Shown: piece after piece, positions 46,907 to 59,581 of the stretch
Numbering within the stretch: the stretch's first letter is position 1
Layout of the letters: each line of letters begins with the position of its first letter
Source: Acidimicrobiales bacterium
GTDB lineage: Bacteria; Actinomycetota; Acidimicrobiia; Acidimicrobiales; JAHEJN01
Reading direction: 5' to 3'
Length of the DNA: 64,000 nucleotides
Assembly (NCBI GenBank): GCA_024638845.1
Contig: JAHEJN010000005.1
Span: forward strand, 1 to 64,000
The notes under the pieces: model-generated
Seen by the model: the letters and a program-made list of their open reading frames with translations, nothing else
What the model was told of the DNA's origin: nothing
Databases searched by the model: none
Position numbers and translations under genes: made by a program

Positions 46907-49900
46907 TCACGAATCAGCGCGTTCGAGGCGTTGCAGCGCGTCGGTCACCGCACGAGCCGTGACCGCGACCTTCGGTTCGACGAGGAGGCCGCCGTGGTCG
47001 CCCGGCAACTCGATCACCTCCACGTTCTCCCCCAGATGGTCGCTCCATCCGAGGTCGGACCGACCGGTGGCCCGCCGCCGCTCAGCGGTGGCGACGACCA
47101 CGGCCGGAACACCGACGACGGTCCCCGACCGACGATGGGTGTCGAGCATGATTCGGGACGCCCGAGTGTTCCGGCGCCACCGGACCGCCGGATCGCGGAC
47201 ATCGCGGTCCCGATCGGTGACGACGCCACGGAGGTCCGCAAGAGATCGTCGGCCGGAGCTCGCGGCGCGTGCCCGCCGCCGTTGCTCGACGGGTGCGGCG
47301 TCGACGATCAACAGTCCCTCCACCCACCCCGGAAGTCGTCGATGGAGCCGTCGAACCACCTCGACGGCCACGACCCCTCCGAACGAGTTGCCCGCAATCA
47401 CCGGCGGTGGCCCGTCGAGGCTCACGAGCGTCTCGACGATGCGAGCGACAAGACGCCGGAGAACCAGATTCGGGCGTTCGCCGATCTCGGATCCGGGGTA
47501 CGGATACACGAGAACCTCGGGCGGAGCGGCGAGGTGGTGAACGAGGCGTCGTACCTCGACATCGAGGCTACCGCCACCAGGAAACCAGATCACGCGTCGA
47601 CCGTCATGACCGGTGCAGATCCGCCGAAGCCGGCCCGGCAGGGGTCCGCCGAGGGAGGCGACCCCGTCTGCGGCCAACTCGGCAAGGGGTCGATCTCCGA
47701 CGAGCATGGCCATGTCGAGCCTGACCCCGCGGATGTCGAACAACTGCTCCTGGAGTGAAATGGCGGCGAAACTGTCGCCTCCGTTGGCCTGGAGGGAGCG
47801 AGTCGGGTCGATCGTGGTCGGCGACCGGCCCAGCACACTCGCCACCACGGCGCAGATGTCGGCCACATCAGGTGAGAGCGACACGACTTCGGCCGTATCC
47901 TGGGATCGGGCGAGAAGCGTTCGGGCCGTCATGTGGTCGATCTTCCCGCTATCGAGCACCGGAATCGCCTCGACGACCTCGATCCGGTTCAGAACGGCGA
48001 ACGACGGCAGGAGCTCGGCGACCGCCGAACGCATGTCGGCCGCCGACGGGTGTCCGATGGGAGTGACCAGGGCCGCAAGACTGGCGCCGAGCGGCGCCTC
48101 CGGATCGATCATGACGAGAGCCGAGCGCACGAGACCGGTCGAGACGAGTGCATGCTCTATCTCGCCGGCATCGATGCGATTGCCGTTCACGGACAGGCGG
48201 GAGTCGCGTCGACCGACGAAATGCAGCCGACCCGCGCCGTCCCACCACCCGAGATCGCCGGACCGATGACCCCGATCACCGGCCTCCGACGGCGTGACGA
48301 GCGGACCATGGATGACGATCTCGCCTCGCACTCCGGGGGGTACCGCACACCCGTTGGCGTCGATCACCTCGAGTCCGACGTTGGCGAGCGGACGACCGAT
48401 GTCGGGATCCCGAGTGCCCTGCGGCACGGGACCGAGCGTGCTTTCCGACGTGGCTTCCGTACAGCCGTACTGGTTCACGATCGTCGCATCGGGGAACGCC
48501 TCGGCGACGGCGTCGGCGGTGCCCCGGGTCAGCCGATCGGCGCCCGAAACGACCAGTCTCACCTGCCGGTTCGGGCCGACGTGGCCGAGCACCTGACCTG
48601 CCACGGCGTGGAGCATGGCCGGGGTTCCCCGGTACCAGGTCACGGCGAGCTCGTTCAACCGCAGTGCGATCCGGAATGGATCTCGAACGGTGACGCCATC
48701 GAGGAAGTAGAGGGCGCTCCCGCTCAGCAACGGAGCCAACCACTCCGACAGGAACCCGACCACCGATGCAGGTTTGGAGACCGTGGCGACCCCGACGGCG
48801 TCGGGTGGGACGATCTGATGCCACGCGTGCACGAGGTGGACCAGATTCGACTGCGTTCCCATGCTCAGGCGCGGCTCTCCGGTCGAGCCGCTGGTGAGAC
48901 ATCCCCACGCCGGCGATTCGGGGTCGATCGAGTCCGGCAGTTGGCCGGGAGGCGAGGCGGTCAAGAGCTCATCGAAGGAGACCTCCTGGTGACCGGACGG
49001 CATGGGTGCTCCGCCGACGTCGGCGACGACGAGGCGCACCGAGGCCGCGGTCAGCTGCGTGGCCATTCGCCGCTCGGATCCGTCGCACCCAACGGCGACC
49101 ACCGCGCGGCCGATACGCCAGGCCGCGAGCTGGAGGACGATCTGCTCGAGGCCACCCGGCAGGACCGAGCCGATCGTCTCACCCTCCGTGGTGCGCCCGG
49201 CCAGGGCGATCGCGACGCGCCCGACCAACGCGTCGAGGTCCACGAAAGTGAGGTCGTGATCGAAGGAGCGCACCGCCGTTCTCCTCGGCCACTTGGCCAC
49301 ACACGTGCGGAACCAGTCGTCGACGGTCGTGAAGCCGGGAACGCCCTGAGGGCCACGGCACCACTCGTCCACGAGGGCCAGGTCGATCGAGCTGACCCAG
49401 CCGATCTCTTCGAGGAGACAATCGGGTGCGTCGACCAACGACTCGACGATCGCGGCGAAGGACCTCGCGTACGAAGCGGCGACGCTGCGTTCGACGAGTC
49501 GCGGATCGAACACGATCTCGAGGGACGCTGAAGAGCCGCCGAGGTGGAGATCGAGACTCACCGGAGCTCGGGCGACCGGCGGGTCGAGGGAAAGCGACTC
49601 GACCGTGAGGCGGCCCAGCTCGAGACGGTCGGTGTCGGTGCGCACCTGAACCCGAGCGTGGAGAATGGGTTCGCCGTACCGACGGCCTGCCGCATGCCGG
49701 ATCTCGTCGAGACCCGAATCGGACCGCTCGTAGACGTCCAGGCACTCCTGACGCACGGATGCGAGCAAGTCCGCCGTCGACCGTGAAGCGGCCAGATCGA
49801 CGACCACCGGGACGGAGTCCATCGTCACACCTACGGACCCGTCGCAGCTCGACGATCGATGATCGACGGCGAGACCGACGGCGACCTTGTTGTCCCCGGT

Positions 49901-52432
49901 CAGGCGCTGCAAGCCGAGCGCGCTGGCCGCAACCTGAACCATCGTTGGCGTCACGTGGTGAGCAGCACACACCTGACGGAGACGCTCGACCGTCGACTCG
50001 CCGAGCTCGATTCGTTCCACCGCCGGCCGAGCGCCAGCCAACCCCGCCGTGGCGGGCACTCGTGTCGGCCAGTCGAGCTCGACGGGAACATCACGAAAAC
50101 GATCGGCCCACCACGCGCGGTCGGTCTCGCTCATCGGACGGTGGCGCGAACGAACCCGTGGAGCCGGGACCTGCCACGACTCGCCGGCGAAGGCCCGGGC
50201 CAGGTCATCGAGCACGACTCGGCGGCTGCGCCCATCGAGAACGGCGTGATGGTAGGCGAATCCGAGGAACCAGCGATCGGTCGACCCGAGGGGCCACAAC
50301 GCGAAGCGGATCAGCGGGCCTTCGACGAGATCGTAGGACCGAGCAGCGGCGGCCTCGAACTCCGTCCGTGCCTGGTCGACGTCGAGAACCGCATCATCGT
50401 CGATCCACTCGTAGGCCTCGTCGACGTTGAGCGGCACGTAGTCGAGGGTCGGCGCGAAGACGAACGACGCGCGCAGGGCTGGGTGGTGCTCGATCACGGT
50501 CTCGACCGCACGGCGCAGTCGACCGGCGTCGATCTCGCCTCGGATCGACCAGGCGAAGGCCATGTGGGAAGCCGCCGGATCGATGCCGAGTCGATCGGCG
50601 GCGAGCATCCGTCGCTGGGCCGCCGCAGGTGCCGTCACGCTCTGCATTCGATCGCGTCGACGCCGGGGCGGCCCGACGCGCAGTGACGCCATTCCCGAGA
50701 GCGACGTGTCGCGCAACAGGTCGACCAGTCGCACCTCGAATCCCCAGCGCTGTCCGAGATCGAACGCAACCGCCATGGCGGCCAACGAGTCGCCTCCGAG
50801 AGCGATGAAGTCGTCACTCCTGGCCATGGGCGCGAGCCCCACGGAACGCCACGCATCGGCAACCTCGGACTCGACCGAATCGAATGGAACGCGTGAACGC
50901 GCCGGCGCGCTGCTGCCGAACGACTCCGCCAGCCGATTCCGTTGCACCTTGCCGGTGGGTCCGACGGGTATCGCCTCGACCAGATGGACGACACGCGGCA
51001 CCTCTGCGTCCCCCCGCCGAAGCGCAACCTCCTGCTGGAGACGAACGACGGGGATCGATGCGTTCTCGGTCACCACCGCCGCCGCCACCTGTTCGCCGAG
51101 GGTCGGATGCGGCGCAGCGAAGACGACGGCATCGTCGACCCCATCGAGGGAACGCAACACCTCTTCGATCGGTCCGGGTGCGATCGTCTCGCCGCCGCGG
51201 TTGATCATCTCCCTGGTTCGGCCGACCAGGACCAGATGCCCGTCGGGATCGATTCGACCCAGATCACCGGTGCGGAACCAACCGTCGACGAACGCGGCGT
51301 CGTTCACCACCGCATCGGCGATGTAGCCTCCCATCACGTTCCGACCTCGGATGACGACATCACCGACACCGCCGGGCTCGAGCGTCCGACCCTCGTCGTC
51401 GATCACCCGGATCCGGGCACCGTCGGCGCGTCCGACCGTGCCTCGGCGCAGATCATCGACGGTGTTGGACGTGATCTGATGGGCCGCCTCGGTCATGCCG
51501 TACGCCTCGAGCACCGGCACGCCGAATCGGCGTTCGAGCGACTCGGCCACCGATGCGGGCAGGGCCGACGACGACGACCGAACCAGACGAAGACGCTCGG
51601 TCCAGGCCGAGTTGTCGCGCGGCGACGCCGTCAGGGCCCGGTGGATCGTGGGGACCGCGGTCACGAAAGTCGCGCCGAACGACGCGGCCGTGTCGGGGAG
51701 CGTGGCAGGATCGAATCGACCGCCGAGGAACACGGCCCCGCCGGCAGCGAGCGGGGCGAGGAGCCCCGCGACCATGCCATGGATGTGGGTGAGCGGCATG
51801 ACCGTCAGCGACCGGTCGTCGGCTGCGAGCCCGAGCGATCCGACGATTCGTTCGATCGACGAGACCAGATTCCCGTGACGGAGGGGTACGACCTTGGGCT
51901 CGCCGGTGGTGCCTGACGTGGTCAGCACCAACGCGAGATCGGCGATGTCGTCCTGGGGACCGTGGGCGGATGGGCGATCGGGCCGACGAAGGCGGAAGCC
52001 GTCGTCACGGTGCGGGCTGACCACGGTGAGTCCGAGGTCGTTGGCCACCATTGCGGCCGGCGAGTCGACCGTCGCCACCACTGCGGCCACCCGAGTCCGC
52101 GTGAAGTGCGCGGCGATCGCGTCGGGCGGGAGATCGGCGCGAACCGGCGCCGCCCCTCCCGCACCCATCGCCGCCAGCACGGCCATCGCCAGGTCGGCGC
52201 CCTCGGGGAGGCACACACCGATCAGCGCCGAACCGAGCTCGTCTGCCAGCACCGCCGCACCGGCCTCGACCCGGTCGAGGAGCTCACGACGCGACCAGCC
52301 TCCACCCGGCGTGACGACGGCGAGAGCGAGGTCGGAGCCGGGCGCGGTGTGCAGCCGGGCGAGGACCGTAGGACCGTGCCGATTCACGGCACCCGCAGGT
52401 CCGACGTGGACCGATGGTTGCGCCCGCTGCAT
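46907..52432 (-). CDS. NRPS-like megasynthase, read as A(acyl-ligase type)-T-C-A-T-TE
   Basis: 1841 aa. A1 TTSGTTGEPKVVPL and INRGGETIAPGPIEEVL; T1 FIALGGDSLAAM; C YHHAVLDGRS; A2 TSGSTGEPRLSMG and GRRDSRLSVNGNRIDAGEIEHAL; T2 NGGDSFAAISL; TE AGNSFGGVVAVEV with GDHGGLL. Confidence 0.9.
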   Translation of the reverse strand: MQRAQPSVHVGPAGAVNRHGPTVLARLHTAPGSDLALAVVTPGGGWSRRELLDRVEAGAAVLADELGSALIGVCLPEGADLAMAVLAAMGAGGAAPVRADLPPDAIAAHFTRTRVAAVVATVDSPAAMVANDLGLTVVSPHRDDGFRLRRPDRPSAHGPQDDIADLALVLTTSGTTGEPKVVPLRHGNLVSSIERIVGSLGLAADDRSLTVMPLTHIHGMVAGLLAPLAAGGAVFLGGRFDPATLPDTAASFGATFVTAVPTIHRALTASPRDNSAWTERLRLVRSSSSALPASVAESLERRFGVPVLEAYGMTEAAHQITSNTVDDLRRGTVGRADGARIRVIDDEGRTLEPGGVGDVVIRGRNVMGGYIADAVVNDAAFVDGWFRTGDLGRIDPDGHLVLVGRTREMINRGGETIAPGPIEEVLRSLDGVDDAVVFAAPHPTLGEQVAAAVVTENASIPVVRLQQEVALRRGDAEVPRVVHLVEAIPVGPTGKVQRNRLAESFGSSAPARSRVPFDSVESEVADAWRSVGLAPMARSDDFIALGGDSLAAMAVAFDLGQRWGFEVRLVDLLRDTSLSGMASLRVGPPRRRRDRMQSVTAPAAAQRRMLAADRLGIDPAASHMAFAWSIRGEIDAGRLRRAVETVIEHHPALRASFVFAPTLDYVPLNVDEAYEWIDDDAVLDVDQARTEFEAAAARSYDLVEGPLIRFALWPLGSTDRWFLGFAYHHAVLDGRSRRVVLDDLARAFAGESWQVPAPRVRSRHRPMSETDRAWWADRFRDVPVELDWPTRVPATAGLAGARPAVERIELGESTVERLRQVCAAHHVTPTMVQVAASALGLQRLTGDNKVAVGLAVDHRSSSCDGSVGVTMDSVPVVVDLAASRSTADLLASVRQECLDVYERSDSGLDEIRHAAGRRYGEPILHARVQVRTDTDRLELGRLTVESLSLDPPVARAPVSLDLHLGGSSASLEIVFDPRLVERSVAASYARSFAAIVESLVDAPDCLLEEIGWVSSIDLALVDEWCRGPQGVPGFTTVDDWFRTCVAKWPRRTAVRSFDHDLTFVDLDALVGRVAIALAGRTTEGETIGSVLPGGLEQIVLQLAAWRIGRAVVAVGCDGSERRMATQLTAASVRLVVADVGGAPMPSGHQEVSFDELLTASPPGQLPDSIDPESPAWGCLTSGSTGEPRLSMGTQSNLVHLVHAWHQIVPPDAVGVATVSKPASVVGFLSEWLAPLLSGSALYFLDGVTVRDPFRIALRLNELAVTWYRGTPAMLHAVAGQVLGHVGPNRQVRLVVSGADRLTRGTADAVAEAFPDATIVNQYGCTEATSESTLGPVPQGTRDPDIGRPLANVGLEVIDANGCAVPPGVRGEIVIHGPLVTPSEAGDRGHRSGDLGWWDGAGRLHFVGRRDSRLSVNGNRIDAGEIEHALVSTGLVRSALVMIDPEAPLGASLAALVTPIGHPSAADMRSAVAELLPSFAVLNRIEVVEAIPVLDSGKIDHMTARTLLARSQDTAEVVSLSPDVADICAVVASVLGRSPTTIDPTRSLQANGGDSFAAISLQEQLFDIRGVRLDMAMLVGDRPLAELAADGVASLGGPLPGRLRRICTGHDGRRVIWFPGGGSLDVEVRRLVHHLAAPPEVLVYPYPGSEIGERPNLVLRRLVARIVETLVSLDGPPPVIAGNSFGGVVAVEVVRRLHRRLPGWVEGLLIVDAAPVEQRRRARAASSGRRSLADLRGVVTDRDRDVRDPAVRWRRNTRASRIMLDTHRRSGTVVGVPAVVVATAERRRATGRSDLGWSDHLGENVEVIELPGDHGGLLVEPKVAVTARAVTDALQRLERADS

Positions 52433-52484: not shown

Positions 52485-53939
52485 TCAGGTGATCGCCCGC
52501 CACGCCTCGGCCAGGCGCTCAGCGGCGTGGTCGAGGTGGTCGGGGGGCTGCACGAACGACATGCGCACATGGTTGCGAGCGGAGTCGTCGGGTGACAGCA
52601 GGCGCCCGGGCACCACCGCCACACCTCGCTCGAGCGCCTCGGAAGCGAACACCTCGGCGTCGACGCCCGGCAGCCTCACCCAGAGACTGAGTCCACCGTT
52701 GACATCGGCGATCTGCCAGTCGGGCACCCGACTGCGCAGCCCGCCGACGAGCGCGGCCGCCTGGGAGCTGAGCTGTCGATTGCGCCAGCGGCGTACCTCG
52801 TCGTAGTGCTCGGCCAACAGCACCTGGCCGAGCGCTTGGGTCGGCATTGGGCTGCCGAGGTCGCTGATGGTCCGAGCCGTGGTGAAGCGGGAGATGACCG
52901 ACCGGCCGGCCCGGATCCAGGCGAGGCGCAGGCCGCCCCAGAACAGCTTCGACATCGACGCGAGATGCACCACGTTGGGTGCGGCGGCGAGCGGATGACG
53001 GTGCGGATCGGGAAACGGGCGACCGAGATCGAGATCGGCCAGCACCATGTCGTCGACGAACACGACGTCGGGGAACTGCTCGGTGAGCTCGAGCAGACGG
53101 GCGCGTGCCCGGTCGCCGAACCGGAGTCCGGTTGGGTTGTGCACGGTCGTCGCGAGGTAGACCAGCGACGGATTGTGGGTGTCGAGAACATCGGCCAGCC
53201 GATCGAGATCGGTGCCTCCGGGCGGGATCGTCACCGGTCGCAGGCCGTGACGATGAACCAGGTCGATCGCCCCGGCGAAGGTGGTGTCCTCGATCACGAC
53301 TGCACCGCCGGGCCGCCCGGCCGTCTCGAAGACCACGTCGATGGCCTGCTGGGCACCCGTGGTCACGAGTATCTGGTCGGGATCGGTGGCCAACCCGAGC
53401 CGCTCGGTGTAGTGCTGGGCGATGGTGGTGCGAAAGCTGGGCAGACCGGCCGGGTGATAGCCGTGCGAGTCCTGCCAACCCGGTGCAACCGAGTCGAGGA
53501 GGTGGCCGTGATCGCGTAGGAGGTCGACCACGGGCGGCGCGCAGTCGGGCGCGGCGAGTGTGAGATCGAACTCCGGTGGCTTGTCGGTGAGCGAGCCGGC
53601 GAAGAGCCCATCGATCTTGTGGGGAGCCCCGGGTCGTGATCGGCGAGGCGCCACGGCGGTCCCTGATCCCCGTCGGGAGCGAGCCAACCCCAGCTCACCC
53701 AGGCGGTGATAGGCCGCGGCCACCGTGTTCCGGCTCACCGCGATCGACGAGGCGAGCTCGCGCTCGGCCGGCAGCACCGCACCGGCGGGGAGCCGTTCGG
53801 TCTCGATGAGGATCTCGAGCTTCTCGGCCAGTGAGCGAAAGAGTGGCCCTTCCCCGGCCCAGTCGCCGAGCAGGTCGGTGACCTGTCGGGTGGTGACGCG
53901 ATGGGAGGCCAACTGCTGGCCAATTGGCACTGTGCCCAT
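52485..53939 (-). CDS. MocR-type regulator (GntR HTH fused to aminotransferase fold)
   Basis: LPAGAVLPAERELASSIAVSRNTVAAAYHRLGELGLARSRRGSGTAV, then ILVTTGAQQAIDVVFE... and SMSKLFWGGLRLAWIR. Confidence 0.88.
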   Translation of the reverse strand: MGTVPIGQQLASHRVTTRQVTDLLGDWAGEGPLFRSLAEKLEILIETERLPAGAVLPAERELASSIAVSRNTVAAAYHRLGELGLARSRRGSGTAVAPRRSRPGAPHKIDGLFAGSLTDKPPEFDLTLAAPDCAPPVVDLLRDHGHLLDSVAPGWQDSHGYHPAGLPSFRTTIAQHYTERLGLATDPDQILVTTGAQQAIDVVFETAGRPGGAVVIEDTTFAGAIDLVHRHGLRPVTIPPGGTDLDRLADVLDTHNPSLVYLATTVHNPTGLRFGDRARARLLELTEQFPDVVFVDDMVLADLDLGRPFPDPHRHPLAAAPNVVHLASMSKLFWGGLRLAWIRAGRSVISRFTTARTISDLGSPMPTQALGQVLLAEHYDEVRRWRNRQLSSQAAALVGGLRSRVPDWQIADVNGGLSLWVRLPGVDAEVFASEALERGVAVVPGRLLSPDDSARNHVRMSFVQPPDHLDHAAERLAEAWRAIT

Positions 53940-53985: not shown

Positions 53986-55419
53986 GTGTCCGACCCGACG
54001 TCACCTCCAACCGAGCCCGGCGCCGATTCCGTTCGCGAGGGGTTGCGACAGCGAGACGACCTGCTCGCCGACGCCGCCGAGCGCGCGCGCCGCTACCTCG
54101 GCACCCTCGGCACCCGGTCGGTCGCCCCGTCGACCCGAGCGCTCGACGAGCTGACCCGACTCGAGCACCCGCTGCCCGAACACGGGTCGACTCCAGGGGC
54201 GGTGCTCGAACAGCTCGATCGCATCGGCTCGCCGGCCACCGTCGCCCAGGCCGGGCCGCGGTACTTCGGCTTCGTCACCGGTGGCACCCATCCGGCCGCT
54301 CTCGCAGCAGCCTGGCTGGCCAACGCCTGGGACCAGAACAACGCGCTGTACGCGATGTCTCCCGTCGGCAACGCCCTCGACCGGATCGCCATCGACTGGG
54401 TGATCGACGCCCTCGGGCTTCCGAACGGGACAGGTGGCGCCTTCGTCACGGGCGCCACGATGGCCAGTGCCACGGCCCTCGCCGCGGCTCGCGACCACGT
54501 GCTCACCGAGGCGGGCTGGGACGCCCATGCCGACGGTCTGATCGGCGCGCCTGCGGTCCAGGTGATCACCGGTGCCGAAGCCCACACCACGGTGAGCAAG
54601 GCGCTCGGCATCGTGGGCCTCGGCCGATCGCGGGCTCGCCTCCTCCCCACCGACGACCAGGGCCGCATCGTCGCCCGCAACCTGCCCGACATCGACGGAC
54701 CGACCGTCGTGATCCTGCAGGCCGGCAACGTCAACAGCGGCTGCAGTGACCCGTTCCCCGAGCTGATCGAATGGGCGCACGCGGCCGGGGCCTGGGTGCA
54801 CGTCGATGGCGCATTCGGTCTGTGGGCGGCCGCCAGCCCCGCCCGCCGGCGATTCGTCGTGGGGGTCGATCAGGCTGACTCCTGGGCGACCGACGGTCAC
54901 AAGTGGCTCAACGTGAGCTACGACTGCGGCATCGCCCTGGTCCGCGATGCGGCCGATCTGCGGGCCGCGGCGCGGTCCGACGCGCCGTATCTCGTTACCG
55001 AAGAGAGTGTCCGCGAGCCGATGCACCTCTCCCCGCAGTCGTCCCAGCGCGCCCGTGGCATCGAGGTGTGGGCGGTGCTGGCCGCCCTCGGGCGCCAGGG
55101 TCTGGCCGAGCTGGTCGACCGCACCTGTGACCACGCCCAGCGCTTCGCCGCTGGTCTGGACGACGCGGGCTTCTCGGTGCTGAACGATGTCGAGCTCAAC
55201 CAGGTCGTGGTCGACTTCGGCCCGGCAACCGACGAAATCGTCGCGGCCGTCCAGGCCGAGGGCACCTGTTGGGCGGGACCGACGACCTGGCGGGGTCGGC
55301 GGGCCATGCGACTGAGCGTGAGTTGTTGGGCCACAATGAGCAGCGACGTCGAGCGCAGCCTCGCCACCATCGTCTCCATCGCACAGGCGCACACTTCCCG
55401 AGAGGAACGCCAGCCATGA
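53986..55419 (+). CDS. pyridoxal-dependent (group II) decarboxylase family protein
   Basis: GPRYFGFVTGGTHPAALAAAWLANAWDQN; WVHVDGAFGLWAAAS; SWATDGHKWLNVSYDCG (PLP Lys). Confidence 0.85.
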   Translation: MSDPTSPPTEPGADSVREGLRQRDDLLADAAERARRYLGTLGTRSVAPSTRALDELTRLEHPLPEHGSTPGAVLEQLDRIGSPATVAQAGPRYFGFVTGGTHPAALAAAWLANAWDQNNALYAMSPVGNALDRIAIDWVIDALGLPNGTGGAFVTGATMASATALAAARDHVLTEAGWDAHADGLIGAPAVQVITGAEAHTTVSKALGIVGLGRSRARLLPTDDQGRIVARNLPDIDGPTVVILQAGNVNSGCSDPFPELIEWAHAAGAWVHVDGAFGLWAAASPARRRFVVGVDQADSWATDGHKWLNVSYDCGIALVRDAADLRAAARSDAPYLVTEESVREPMHLSPQSSQRARGIEVWAVLAALGRQGLAELVDRTCDHAQRFAAGLDDAGFSVLNDVELNQVVVDFGPATDEIVAAVQAEGTCWAGPTTWRGRRAMRLSVSCWATMSSDVERSLATIVSIAQAHTSREERQP

Positions 55420-56408
55420 CCTCCGATCCCACCAAGGCGCCGTTCGGTTCCGTCTTCGGCGAGAACCTGCCGATCTCGTACTACGACGGCGAGTCGTGGA
55501 GCGATCCGGTCGTCGTGCCGATCGACTCGGTGACCTTCGGACCTGCGACCCATGCCCTCCACTACTCGAGCGAGTGTTTCGAAGGCCTCAAGGGTCATCG
55601 CCAGCCCGACGGCACGGTGAAGATGTTCCGCCCCCAGAAGAACATCACCCGCTTGCGAAACAGCACCGAACGGCTCTTCCTGCCCAAGCCGCCGGTCGAG
55701 TTGTGCGAGAGCCTGTTCGGCCTGGCCGTCGAGCACAATGCCGAGGTCACGCCCGACCCACCCGGTTCGCTGTACGTGCGCCCCACCATCATCGGCACCG
55801 AACACAACATCGGAGCCGCGGGTCGACCATCGAGGACAGCGGCGTTCTACGTGATCACCAGCCCGGTCGGTGAGTACCTGCCCCCTCACGCGCTACGCAT
55901 CGTGGTCGAGACGGTGCACCCGCGAACCACGCCACAATTCGGCGTGGTGAAGAGCGGCGCCAACTACGCCATGGCGCTCAGTCCCCTCCTGGCCGCCAAG
56001 CGCGATTGGAACGCCGACCAGGTGCTGTTCGCTCCCGGCGGCCTCATCGAGGAGACCGGCGCGGCCAACTTCCTGCTGATCGACGAGGGCCATGTGCTCA
56101 CCTCGGCGCTGTCGGAAGCCTTCCTCCACGGCGTGACCCGCGACTCGGTGCTCCAGGTGGCTCGGTCGCTCGGTTGGAAAGCCGAGGAGCGCGACGTGTC
56201 GATCGACGAGCTTCGTGAGTGGGCGGCACGCCCCACCGGCGAGATGGCACTGGCGGGCACGGCCGCCATTCTGGGCGGGGTCGGAGAGCTGGTGCTCGAG
56301 GGTGAGATCGTCACCGTGGGCACCGGCCAGACCGGCCCCACCACCACGATGCTGCGAACCATGCTCACCGAGATCCAGCAGGGGTTGCGCCCCTTCACCT
56401 TCCGCTGA
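55416..56408 (+). CDS. ilvE: branched-chain amino acid aminotransferase
   Basis: SSECFEGLKGHRQPDGTVKMFRPQKNITRLRNSTERLFLP; VKSGANYAMALSPLLAAKRDWNADQVLF; IEETGAANFLLI. Confidence 0.93.
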   Translation: MTSDPTKAPFGSVFGENLPISYYDGESWSDPVVVPIDSVTFGPATHALHYSSECFEGLKGHRQPDGTVKMFRPQKNITRLRNSTERLFLPKPPVELCESLFGLAVEHNAEVTPDPPGSLYVRPTIIGTEHNIGAAGRPSRTAAFYVITSPVGEYLPPHALRIVVETVHPRTTPQFGVVKSGANYAMALSPLLAAKRDWNADQVLFAPGGLIEETGAANFLLIDEGHVLTSALSEAFLHGVTRDSVLQVARSLGWKAEERDVSIDELREWAARPTGEMALAGTAAILGGVGELVLEGEIVTVGTGQTGPTTTMLRTMLTEIQQGLRPFTFR

Positions 56409-56433: not shown

Positions 56434-57255
56434 GTGGCCGTACTGCTCGCATCGTTGTCGTCGCTCACGTGGGGCATCTCGGACTTCGTCGGCGGGATGA
56501 CGACCCGGCGGGTCGCCGTCTTCGTCGTCGTCTTCTGGTCACAACTCGTCGGACTCGCGGTCGCGGGCGCAGCCGCGCCGCTCTTCGATGGATCGTTGTC
56601 GGCAGAGTCGGCCCTGTGGGGTGCCCTCGGTGGCCTCGGTGGCTCGGTCGGGATCCTGGCGCTCTACCGGGGGCTGGCCAGGGGTCGGGCGGCCGTCGTC
56701 GCCCCGGTGGCCGCCGTAATCGGCGCCGCGGTTCCGCTGGTGGTCGGTGTCGCCACCGGCGACCGGCCGGTGGTCACCGCATGGATGGGCATCGGGTTGG
56801 CGTTGCCGGCGATCTGGCTCGTGTCGAGGTCACACCGGCACGAGTCGGCGGTCGGCCTCGGTGACGGGGTCGTCGCCGGGCTGGGTTTCGGCGCGTTCTT
56901 CGTGTTCCTGGCCTTCACGGCCGACGATGCCGGGCTGTGGCCACTGGTACCCGCCCGAGCCGCCTCGATCACGATGGTCGGCCTCGCGCTCCTTCTCCGA
57001 CGGGAGAACCCGCGGCCGCACGTATCGCCGCTGCTCGTCGGCGGCATCGTGGTCGCGGGAGCCGGTGACATGTTGGCCAACATGCTCTACCTGGGTGCCA
57101 CCCAGCGCGGCCTGCTGAGCGTGGTCGGGGTGGTCGCTTCGCTCTACCCCGCGGTCACTGTGGCCCTGGCTCGTGCCTTCGGTGAGCGAGTCGTCGCCAC
57201 GCAATGGCTCGGCGTGGCTCTGTCGCTGGCGGCCGTGGGTCTCATCGCGGCGTGA
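56434..57255 (+). CDS. DMT-superfamily (EamA) transporter
   Basis: 273 aa, about 10 hydrophobic segments in two EamA-like halves; C-terminal FGERVVATQWLGVALSLAAVGLIA. Confidence 0.82.
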   Translation: MAVLLASLSSLTWGISDFVGGMTTRRVAVFVVVFWSQLVGLAVAGAAAPLFDGSLSAESALWGALGGLGGSVGILALYRGLARGRAAVVAPVAAVIGAAVPLVVGVATGDRPVVTAWMGIGLALPAIWLVSRSHRHESAVGLGDGVVAGLGFGAFFVFLAFTADDAGLWPLVPARAASITMVGLALLLRRENPRPHVSPLLVGGIVVAGAGDMLANMLYLGATQRGLLSVVGVVASLYPAVTVALARAFGERVVATQWLGVALSLAAVGLIAA

Positions 57256-57257
57256 GC

Positions 57258-58061
57258 TCAACCGTCGCCGAAGGCCGCGTCGCGATCGGACCGAGAGAGC
57301 AGTTCCGGCCAGTAGGTCACCTCGCCGTCGAGGAGCGCCCGAGCCACTCGGGTCAAGGTCCCGTAGGCGGCGCCGGCGAGGGCGCCGCCGGTGGATGCAC
57401 GCCGCACCCCAGCGTCGCCCAGCTCCGCCGGTGTCGGACCGCCGGGGAACAACAGTACGTTCACCGGAAGGCCGACCTCGCCGACGACCCGACGGATCTC
57501 ACCCAGATCGGTCAGTCCGGGCGCGTAGACGGCGTCGGCGCCGGCGTCACGGAAGGCACACAGACGTTCGATCGTGTCGTCGAGATCACCGCCGCCGTAG
57601 AGCTTGTTCTCGGCGCGAGCCGTGAGCAGCATCGGATGCTCGACGCGATGTGCGGCCTCGGCCGCCGCCGCGCAGCGCTCGACGGCCTTTCCGAGCGGGT
57701 CGATCGTGTTCGTCTCGGGATCGAAGTCCTCGATCGAGAGCCCGGCTGCGCCGGTCTGCGCAATGAGCGACACGGTCTCGGCGACCGCCTCGGCGGTGGC
57801 TGCGAAGCAACGCTCGGCGTCGACGTTCACCGGGATGTCGATGGCAGAAACGATCGCCGCGACATGATCCAGGAGTTCCGAGCGGGTCACCTGTTGGTCG
57901 AGCCTGCCCAGCGCCGCCGCGTGACCCGAGCTCGTGGTGGCGACAGCAGCGAACCCGAGGAACTCGAGCAATCTGGCCGAACCCACATCCCACGGATTCG
58001 GGAGCAGGAACAGGTCGTTGGCCGCATGCAGGGCGGCGAATCGTTCATAGGCCGTGGTCAT
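57258..58061 (-). CDS. isocitrate lyase / PEP mutase family protein
   Basis: FLLPNPWDVGSARLLEFLGFAAVATTSSGHAAALG; VNVDAERCFA; GAAGLSIEDFDPE; TARAENKLYGGGDLDDTIERL. Confidence 0.87.
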   Translation of the reverse strand: MTTAYERFAALHAANDLFLLPNPWDVGSARLLEFLGFAAVATTSSGHAAALGRLDQQVTRSELLDHVAAIVSAIDIPVNVDAERCFAATAEAVAETVSLIAQTGAAGLSIEDFDPETNTIDPLGKAVERCAAAAEAAHRVEHPMLLTARAENKLYGGGDLDDTIERLCAFRDAGADAVYAPGLTDLGEIRRVVGEVGLPVNVLLFPGGPTPAELGDAGVRRASTGGALAGAAYGTLTRVARALLDGEVTYWPELLSRSDRDAAFGDG

Positions 58062-58162
58062 GACCGCGATGGTCGCACCCCGGGGCGCGGGCGTCGACAA
58101 GAGGGGAACCCTCCGCTGGTGTCCGTCGCACGGCCTGGCGTCGTCGTGGGACACTGCGGGCG

Positions 58163-59581
58163 ATGGATCTGCTGTTCCACATACTCGATCAGTCGCAATG
58201 GGACCAGGCCCGAGCGGCCGGAGTGTACGAGCCCGAGTCGCTGACGGCCGAGGGCTTCATTCATCTCTCGACCGCCGACCAGGTGCCCGGAACGGCCAAC
58301 CGCCGCTATGCCGGGGGGACCGATCTGGTCGTGCTCGCCATCGACGCCGACGCCGTGACCCCCGAGATCCGGTTCGAGGACCTCTACGATCACGGTGCCG
58401 AGTTCCCCCACCTGTACGGCCCGCTCGCCACCTCCGCCGTCCACCACGTGGTGCCGCTCGAAGCCGGCGAGGAGGCCACGTTCACGTTCTCGTTCCCTCA
58501 CGAGGGGGGCGACGTCGAGGCCCTGGCGACGGACTATCCGTCAGCCCGGAGCAGCTTCCTCGATGCAGCCGTCGGCGCCGGCGCAACCGTCGAGTCATTC
58601 GGTCACCCGCGCCGCGGCCTGAACGACGAGGAGCTCTTCGTCGACGTGGCCCGCCTGGGACCCGACGAGGCCGACGTCTGCGTGCTGGTGGTGGCGGCCA
58701 CCCATGGGGTCGAGGGCTACGCCGGGTCCGCCCTCCAGACCCATTGGCTCACCGAGCACGCACAACAGCGGCCCGACAACGCGGCAGTGTTCCTCGTGCA
58801 CGCCTTCAATCCCTTCGGCTTCTCCTGGGTACGACGGGTGAACGAGGACAACGTCGACCTCAACCGCAACTTCATCGACTGGGACGAACCCCTTCCGACC
58901 AATGCCGCGTACATGCAGATCGCATCCGCCCTCGTTCCCGCCGACTGGTCGACCGAGAGCCAGCAACGCTCGCTGGCCGATCTGCTCACCGTCGCCGGCG
59001 ACTGGGGGCTCGAGCGCATGCAAACCGCCGTGAGCTCGGGCCAGTACGCCCATCCCACCGGCGTGTTCTACGGAGGCGACGGTCCCGTGTGGTCGCACCG
59101 ATGGCTGCGGTCATGGGCGAGCGACCATCTGTCCGGAGCCCGTGACCTCGCCGTCCTCGATCTCCACACCGGCCTAGGGGCCTGGGGGGCTTGCCAGCTC
59201 ATCGGCCACGACCGGGTGGGGACCGCCGGTCATGCCCGCGCCGGCGACTGGTGGGGTCCGGTCGTCGCCATGGGCGGCGAGAACAGCGTCTCCGCCTCGC
59301 TCACCGGCGACTGGCTCGGTGTCGTCCAGGAGCTGGCGGCGAGCGCCCGGACCACGCGTGTGGCGCTCGAGTTCGGCACCGTCGATGCCGTCACCGTGCT
59401 GCAGGCGCTGCGCGCCGACGCATGGCTGCACGCCCACGGCGACCCCCTCGGCGACGACGCGGCCGCGATCCGCGCCCAGGTTCGGGCGGCGTTCGCCGAC
59501 GACGACCCCCGATGGATTCGCTCGTGTTGGCCGCATTTCGCACGGGCCATGACGGCCACGTTCGCCAAGATCGGCCGCTGA
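58163..59581 (+). CDS. DUF952-DUF2817 fusion protein (M14-like peptidase-fold C-terminus)
   Basis: N-terminus LFHILDQSQWDQARAAGVYEPESLTAEGFIHLSTADQV (DUF952); C-terminal VVAATHGVEGYAGSALQTHWL...NEDNVDLNRNFIDWD...VLDLHTGLG...VALEFGT (DUF2817). Confidence 0.78.
   Translation: MDLLFHILDQSQWDQARAAGVYEPESLTAEGFIHLSTADQVPGTANRRYAGGTDLVVLAIDADAVTPEIRFEDLYDHGAEFPHLYGPLATSAVHHVVPLEAGEEATFTFSFPHEGGDVEALATDYPSARSSFLDAAVGAGATVESFGHPRRGLNDEELFVDVARLGPDEADVCVLVVAATHGVEGYAGSALQTHWLTEHAQQRPDNAAVFLVHAFNPFGFSWVRRVNEDNVDLNRNFIDWDEPLPTNAAYMQIASALVPADWSTESQQRSLADLLTVAGDWGLERMQTAVSSGQYAHPTGVFYGGDGPVWSHRWLRSWASDHLSGARDLAVLDLHTGLGAWGACQLIGHDRVGTAGHARAGDWWGPVVAMGGENSVSASLTGDWLGVVQELAASARTTRVALEFGTVDAVTVLQALRADAWLHAHGDPLGDDAAAIRAQVRAAFADDDPRWIRSCWPHFARAMTATFAKIGR

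Follow-up and report, generated by a model that had tools for sequence, protein, structure and literature searches.

Which two building blocks are joined and released by a single protein that carries both modules of a nonribosomal peptide synthetase (NRPS) is the question raised by this locus. It was analysed within a window of 64,000 nt, i.e. the whole stretch of DNA under study, from the genome of an uncultured Acidimicrobiales bacterium (3.7 Mb in 220 contigs, 96.9% complete). An earlier note, made from the sequence alone, had described a single 5.5-kb gene with two adenylation-type cores, two GGDS motifs, a condensation domain with HHAVLDG and a C-terminal thioesterase (TE) with GNSFGG and GDHGG, in the order A-T-C-A-T-TE. 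Open reading frame, Pfam and motif checks agree with this layout, while the first core turned out to be of a different kind than the second, which bears on the expected product.

Domain organisation of the synthetase

The gene is one open reading frame on the reverse strand (46907..52432, 1,841 aa), its 5.5-kb frame running without interruption and its GC and GC3 resembling those of the adjoining genes. Pfam returned AMP-binding twice (1e-109), Condensation (1e-37), PP-binding twice (5.5e-15), AMP-binding_C twice and Thioesterase (3.6e-10), all exceeding the curated cut-offs, a domain content which cannot be due to chance. Following the chain from its N-terminus, with all domains on the reverse strand, a putative loader of the acyl-CoA-ligase type, belonging to the oxalyl-CoA synthetase clade (A1, residues 36–510, 50903..52327; called from sequence, pocket residues, tree and predicted fold) precedes a carrier domain T1 (residues 520–592, 50657..50875, LGGDS at residue 545), a condensation domain (residues 597–1025, 49358..50644, with intact HHAVLDG at residue 728), a probable NRPS adenylation domain A2 (residues 1035–1505, 47918..49330, code VGSAVGQSEK; called from alignment and fold), a second carrier domain T2 (residues 1518–1592, 47657..47881, NGGDS at residue 1550) and the TE (residues 1605–1838, 46919..47620, with GNSFGG at residue 1681, VDAAP, and PGDHGG, whose GDHGG lies at residue 1811). 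Carriers, condensation domain and TE were delimited by Pfam and motifs.

The A10 lysine is found in both A1 and A2, the TE combines GxSxG with a His, and every catalytic residue checked is present. Judged by eye, the C4 and C6 motifs of the condensation domain are divergent, and the A3 motif of A2, TSGSTGEPRLSMGT, is off consensus, with its Lys replaced by Arg. The protein belongs to the type I modular NRPSs by its single chain of A, T, C and TE domains, their active-site motifs and the presence of a PPTase in the genome. All essential domains are there and no characterised synthase matched over the full length. Orthologues were found neither in 397 genomes of the order nor in 397 of the phylum, which returned only generic NRPSs at ~30%, the C-A2-T2-TE part having its best relatives at about 31% identity in the same genomes; a GTDB scan recovered the loader family and no orthologue, and plasmid records gave only NRPSs of low identity. 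The gene is real and apparently intact, and encodes an orphan NRPS of two modules whose starter is unusual.

The loading domain A1

Both adenylation-type cores have the expected fold, each predicted with confidence, and the nature of the first was assessed from several sides. The closest PDB sequence relatives of A1 are the oxalyl-CoA synthetases of grass pea (6qjz), Arabidopsis (5ie0) and yeast (Pcs60, 8aff). Its AlphaFold model (pLDDT 88.7), built on an alignment of 29 relatives, gave oxalyl-CoA synthetases as the six top Foldseek matches, followed by malonyl-CoA synthetase constructs. The top NCBIfam model was the FadD7 acyl-CoA ligase (NF004511), with 420.7 bits against a curated cut-off of 650 and hence below it. 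Upon alignment to AtAAE3, A1 was found to keep H214, H216, R286, S289, H319 and K500, both His of the HxHG motif being retained, and its pocket string HGATRSAHQK agrees with the yeast and plant oxalate enzymes. H214, S289, H319 and K500 are reportedly oxalate contacts in the AtAAE3 structure; their positions in A1 were mapped here by the alignment. The combination of R286, S289 and H319 is absent from the compared acyl-CoA ligases of the same order. At position F213, A1 carries Thr, unlike most members of its clade.

By sequence, predicted fold and pocket residues, A1 groups with the acyl-CoA ligases of the oxalyl-CoA synthetase type and is no amino-acid adenylation domain. A synthetase that makes a dipeptide from two A domains for amino acids was considered and dismissed because of this relationship, which is seen in the NCBIfam match, the PDB relatives and the pocket. 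Of the two products offered before for this one protein, a small acyl-amino acid or a dipeptide-like compound, the intact domain order and the type of A1 fit the acyl-amino-acid-like one, and the acyl-ligase nature of A1 favours a product of the form acyl-X over a dipeptide.

Distribution of A1-type loaders

Scanning GTDB with the whole protein yielded 56 loci, roughly half of which carry the A1-like domain on a longer protein. The arrangements seen are A-T-TE, a longer NRPS, and a short A-T protein with C-A-T proteins after it. Further NRPS modules come after the oxalyl-type loader, or are fused to it, in about 14 loci, which is consistent with an initiating role. The hosts span at least eight phyla (Actinomycetota, Acidobacteriota, Chloroflexota, Cyanobacteriota, Pseudomonadota, Planctomycetota, Thermodesulfobacteriota and Rokuibacteriota). 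In the tree, 27 carrier-fused rows, classed as such by length (mostly at least 580 aa) or domain content and not all with a carrier match, form one clade with 18 shorter enzymes and A1 (SH-aLRT 98), near which the plant and yeast oxalyl-CoA synthetases and Streptomyces enzymes constitute a separate, weaker group. A1 itself sits on a long branch (1.52) with an unsure placement and pairs with the A1 of locus L041 (support 90). Some of the related loci were retrieved with the peptide MTEAAHQI, which contains the His319 motif, so that the conservation of this residue in the set is partly circular; the retrieval put no such selection on Arg286 and Ser289.

Two Streptomyces ligases of the wider clade (L089:7567-10996, L091:7617-11011), which are of the FadD7 family, are encoded divergently beside an oxalyl-CoA decarboxylase scoring far above the TIGR03254 cut-off. 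This adjacency supports oxalate as the substrate for at least that branch, and the ‘fatty acid ligase’ label of FadD7 may conceal oxalyl-CoA synthetases. In the genome studied here, no oxalyl-CoA decarboxylase was found over the cut-off.

Single-module A-T-TE proteins with the oxalyl-CoA synthetase pocket were observed at L045:9779-12406, L051:9716-12460, L053:6081-8936, L056:15353-17896, L058:9242-12547, L090:6654-9254 and L093:7079-9682, the last assigned by its close likeness to L090; their hosts are Nostoc, Acidobacteriota, Actinomycetota and Rokuibacteriota.

The second module

Alignment to GrsA, for which it returns the known code DAWTIAAICK, gave the ten-residue code of A2 with Val in place of Asp at position 235 and Glu at position 331. 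In A domains for alpha-amino acids, Asp235 holds the alpha-amino group (PMC11355689). It is kept by nearly all other downstream A domains of the related loci, L041 among them. From the change of Asp235 to Val, a substrate without an alpha-amino group at the usual place is inferred, so that A2 probably activates something other than an ordinary alpha-amino acid. Our favoured guess is a beta- or omega-amino acid, because the condensation domain requires a nucleophile and Glu331 could hold a distal amine. Beta-alanine codes such as VDWVISLADK were given no weight in comparison with A2.

With TIGR01733 (cut-off 317.4) the whole protein scored 357 bits, a sum over two stretches of which the top one covers residues 1062–1440, and a fold search with A2 returned only generic NRPS-type A domains, with no hint as to the substrate. 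Asp235 is likewise missing from an A domain at L043:18975-20441 (aligned code IDWSITLDVK), which lies downstream of an oxalyl-type loader.

Gene neighbourhood and genomic context

The immediate neighbours are sdhB and a MocR regulator, as had been stated. sdhA and sdhB lie downstream of the NRPS gene and convergent to it, while the MocR-type regulator (52485..53939, reverse strand; GntR plus aminotransferase fold, YczR-like and under the cut-off of that model) lies upstream on the same strand, separated from the NRPS start by 52 nt. The view that neither tailoring genes nor an exporter are visible did not hold beyond this point. Past the MocR gene, after a gap of 46 nt and in divergent orientation, a group II PLP-dependent decarboxylase (PF00282; 53986..55419, forward strand) is followed by a class-IV, branched-chain-type aminotransferase (IlvE-II like; 55416..56408, forward strand), the start of which overlaps the decarboxylase stop as ATGA, and by an EamA-family (drug/metabolite) transporter as candidate exporter (56434..57255, forward strand). 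The association of these three genes with the synthetase is uncertain. A PEP-mutase/isocitrate-lyase superfamily protein (57258-58154, reverse strand) is convergent with the transporter, and a DUF952-DUF2817 fusion protein with a weak AstE/AspA-like match and no NCBIfam match follows (58163-59581, forward strand).

Conserved synteny does not support the association. The related NRPS loci have no MocR, decarboxylase, aminotransferase or EamA gene, accessory genes not being conserved among them, and at the decarboxylase loci of 15 order-mates none of MocR, aminotransferase, EamA or synthetase is adjacent. Cluster membership is therefore unproven, and the divergent layout of the NRPS and MocR genes on one side and the decarboxylase run on the other is only suggestive of a link. 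The aminotransferase is the sole match of its type in its own genome, with a similar gene in four of the 21 genomes searched, and MocR relatives are sporadic. Among 198 genomes of the order, about 35 carry a relative of the PLP-decarboxylase at 41–62% identity, and its gene context varies.

The PEP-mutase-superfamily gene was also considered as a maker of oxalate, oxaloacetate acetylhydrolase being a member of this superfamily. Its closest solved relative is the uncharacterised lyase/mutase 4lsb and no KKCGH-type loop could be seen, which leaves that role unsupported.

Outside the window, the genome carries a second NRPS locus on contig C78 (19000-32000, L126) that has several C domains, ends in a C-T-TE protein and lies next to a gene for an Sfp-type PPTase; PF01648 (PPTase) matches are found on C113, on C78 by this locus, and on C15. 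The statement that no PPTase and no other NRPS lie near the gene thus stands for the neighbourhood and not for the genome, while no MbtH, likewise reported as missing nearby, turned up in a genome-wide search.

Proposed mechanism and alternative readings

We propose a model in which the protein acts as a single-chain, acyl-initiated dimodular NRPS, with an oxalyl-type A1 loading a very small acid, a second unit that is not an alpha-amino acid, and release by the TE, and to which as a whole we assign a probability of roughly 0.45. A1 would adenylate the acid and load it onto T1, the condensation domain would pass the acyl group from T1 to the A2-activated unit on T2, and the TE would free a small N-acyl product. 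The carriers could be primed by the PPTase from the other NRPS locus of the genome, the adjoining MocR may control expression of the NRPS, and the adjoining PLP-decarboxylase, whose product could be an amine or a non-alpha amino acid, may furnish the second unit. The best single guess for the acid of A1 is oxalate. Extending this to a widespread class of oxalate-started initiation modules, i.e. A-T proteins of the oxalyl-CoA synthetase clade in at least eight phyla, with the present protein as the minimal self-contained form whose product would be an unusual amino acid in N-oxalyl form, is speculative and somewhat unlikely to hold in full. In a literature search we met no description of an oxalyl-initiated NRPS, which is not proof of absence.

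In carrier-fused members of the clade the pocket could be inherited without specificity for oxalate, and the same assembly line might start with another small or medium acid (fatty, alpha-keto or hydroxy, or malonate-like), the likeness to oxalyl-CoA synthetases reflecting ancestry and the product being an ordinary N-acyl amino acid. This is a serious possibility, if short of even odds. NCBIfam names the clade a FadD7 fatty acid-CoA ligase, with a score of 420.7 bits against the cut-off of 650, the Thr at F213 sets A1 apart from most of its clade, and the A-T-TE relatives make little sense with oxalate alone, which is the main observation that oxalate leaves unexplained. Pcs60 of the rice blast fungus is reportedly important for fatty-acid metabolism (PMC8826238). 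Against another acid speaks that A1 keeps Arg286, Ser289 and His319, a combination that the compared order-mate acyl-CoA ligases do not have, together with the two His of the HxHG motif, and that the closest solved structures are oxalyl-CoA synthetases.

A different departure concerns the second unit. Were A2 to take an alpha-keto or hydroxy acid, the units would be ester-joined or a ring closed by the TE, with the keto acid coming from the adjoining aminotransferase. The branched-chain type of that enzyme would suit this, as would the loss of Asp235, which keto-acid-selective A domains do not have. Such domains exist, for example StsA (PMC11355689). The protein, however, has no ketoreductase domain according to Pfam, Glu331 offers a partner for an amine, and the aminotransferase, with no second enzyme of this type detected in the genome, may belong to general metabolism, which together make a keto or hydroxy acid improbable. 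Even less probable is a decaying or inactive NRPS that survives by chance in one genome. Its singleton status, with C-A2-T2-TE relatives at no more than about 31% in the genomes searched, the Lys-to-Arg change in the A3 motif of A2 and several divergent C motifs would be expected from decay, but the frame of 5.5 kb is unbroken, all checked catalytic residues are there, GC and GC3 are like those of adjoining genes and both A domains fold confidently in prediction. We thus retain the acyl-initiated assembly line with a non-alpha second unit as the preferred reading.

Comparison with known systems

A1 is similar to the oxalyl-CoA synthetases (plant AAE3 and yeast Pcs60; 5ie0, 6qjz, 8aff) in fold, A-motifs, H214, R286, S289, H319 and K500. 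These enzymes, however, are free-standing and yield oxalyl-CoA, whereas a carrier and a condensation domain follow A1 in the same chain. Alike in architecture is L041, an uncharacterised NRPS of the Acidimicrobiales MAG RYN_50, which has the same A-T-C-A-T-TE order and a sister A1 (90) at 31% identity in the best segment, but whose A2 keeps Asp235 (code DIFSCALIYK) and which has no accessory genes in common with the present locus. The linear gramicidin synthetase LgrA starts with formylated valine. The two-module logic is alike in LgrA and other dimodular NRPSs (6mfz), with similarity over the A, C and T domains, while the 1,841-aa protein starts with an acyl-CoA-ligase-type loader and ends with a TE. 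Lipopeptide and siderophore NRPSs that begin with a fatty acyl-AMP ligase or an aryl-acid starter likewise have their first acceptor acylated by a loader that takes no amino acid. A1 belongs to another clade than these starters, and aryl-acid ligases rank below oxalyl-CoA synthetases in A1 searches.

Implications

Should the loader use oxalate, it would represent a new starter unit for nonribosomal peptide chemistry and would account for the carrier-fused ligases, now called fatty-acid ligases by general models, that head NRPS loci in many poorly studied phyla. Should it not, the pocket signature of oxalyl-CoA synthetases would be insufficient to predict a substrate. In the first case the present protein would be a handy minimal test case, with one gene, two units and its own release. 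Judging from the gene arrangements, A1-type loaders appear to head NRPS assembly lines in many bacterial phyla, and the interest of the NRPS would lie more in its being a pointer to this family.

Short A-T proteins of the clade were additionally observed directly before C-A-type NRPS genes at L040, L044, L046, L047, L067, L084 and L094, an arrangement as expected of dedicated initiation modules.
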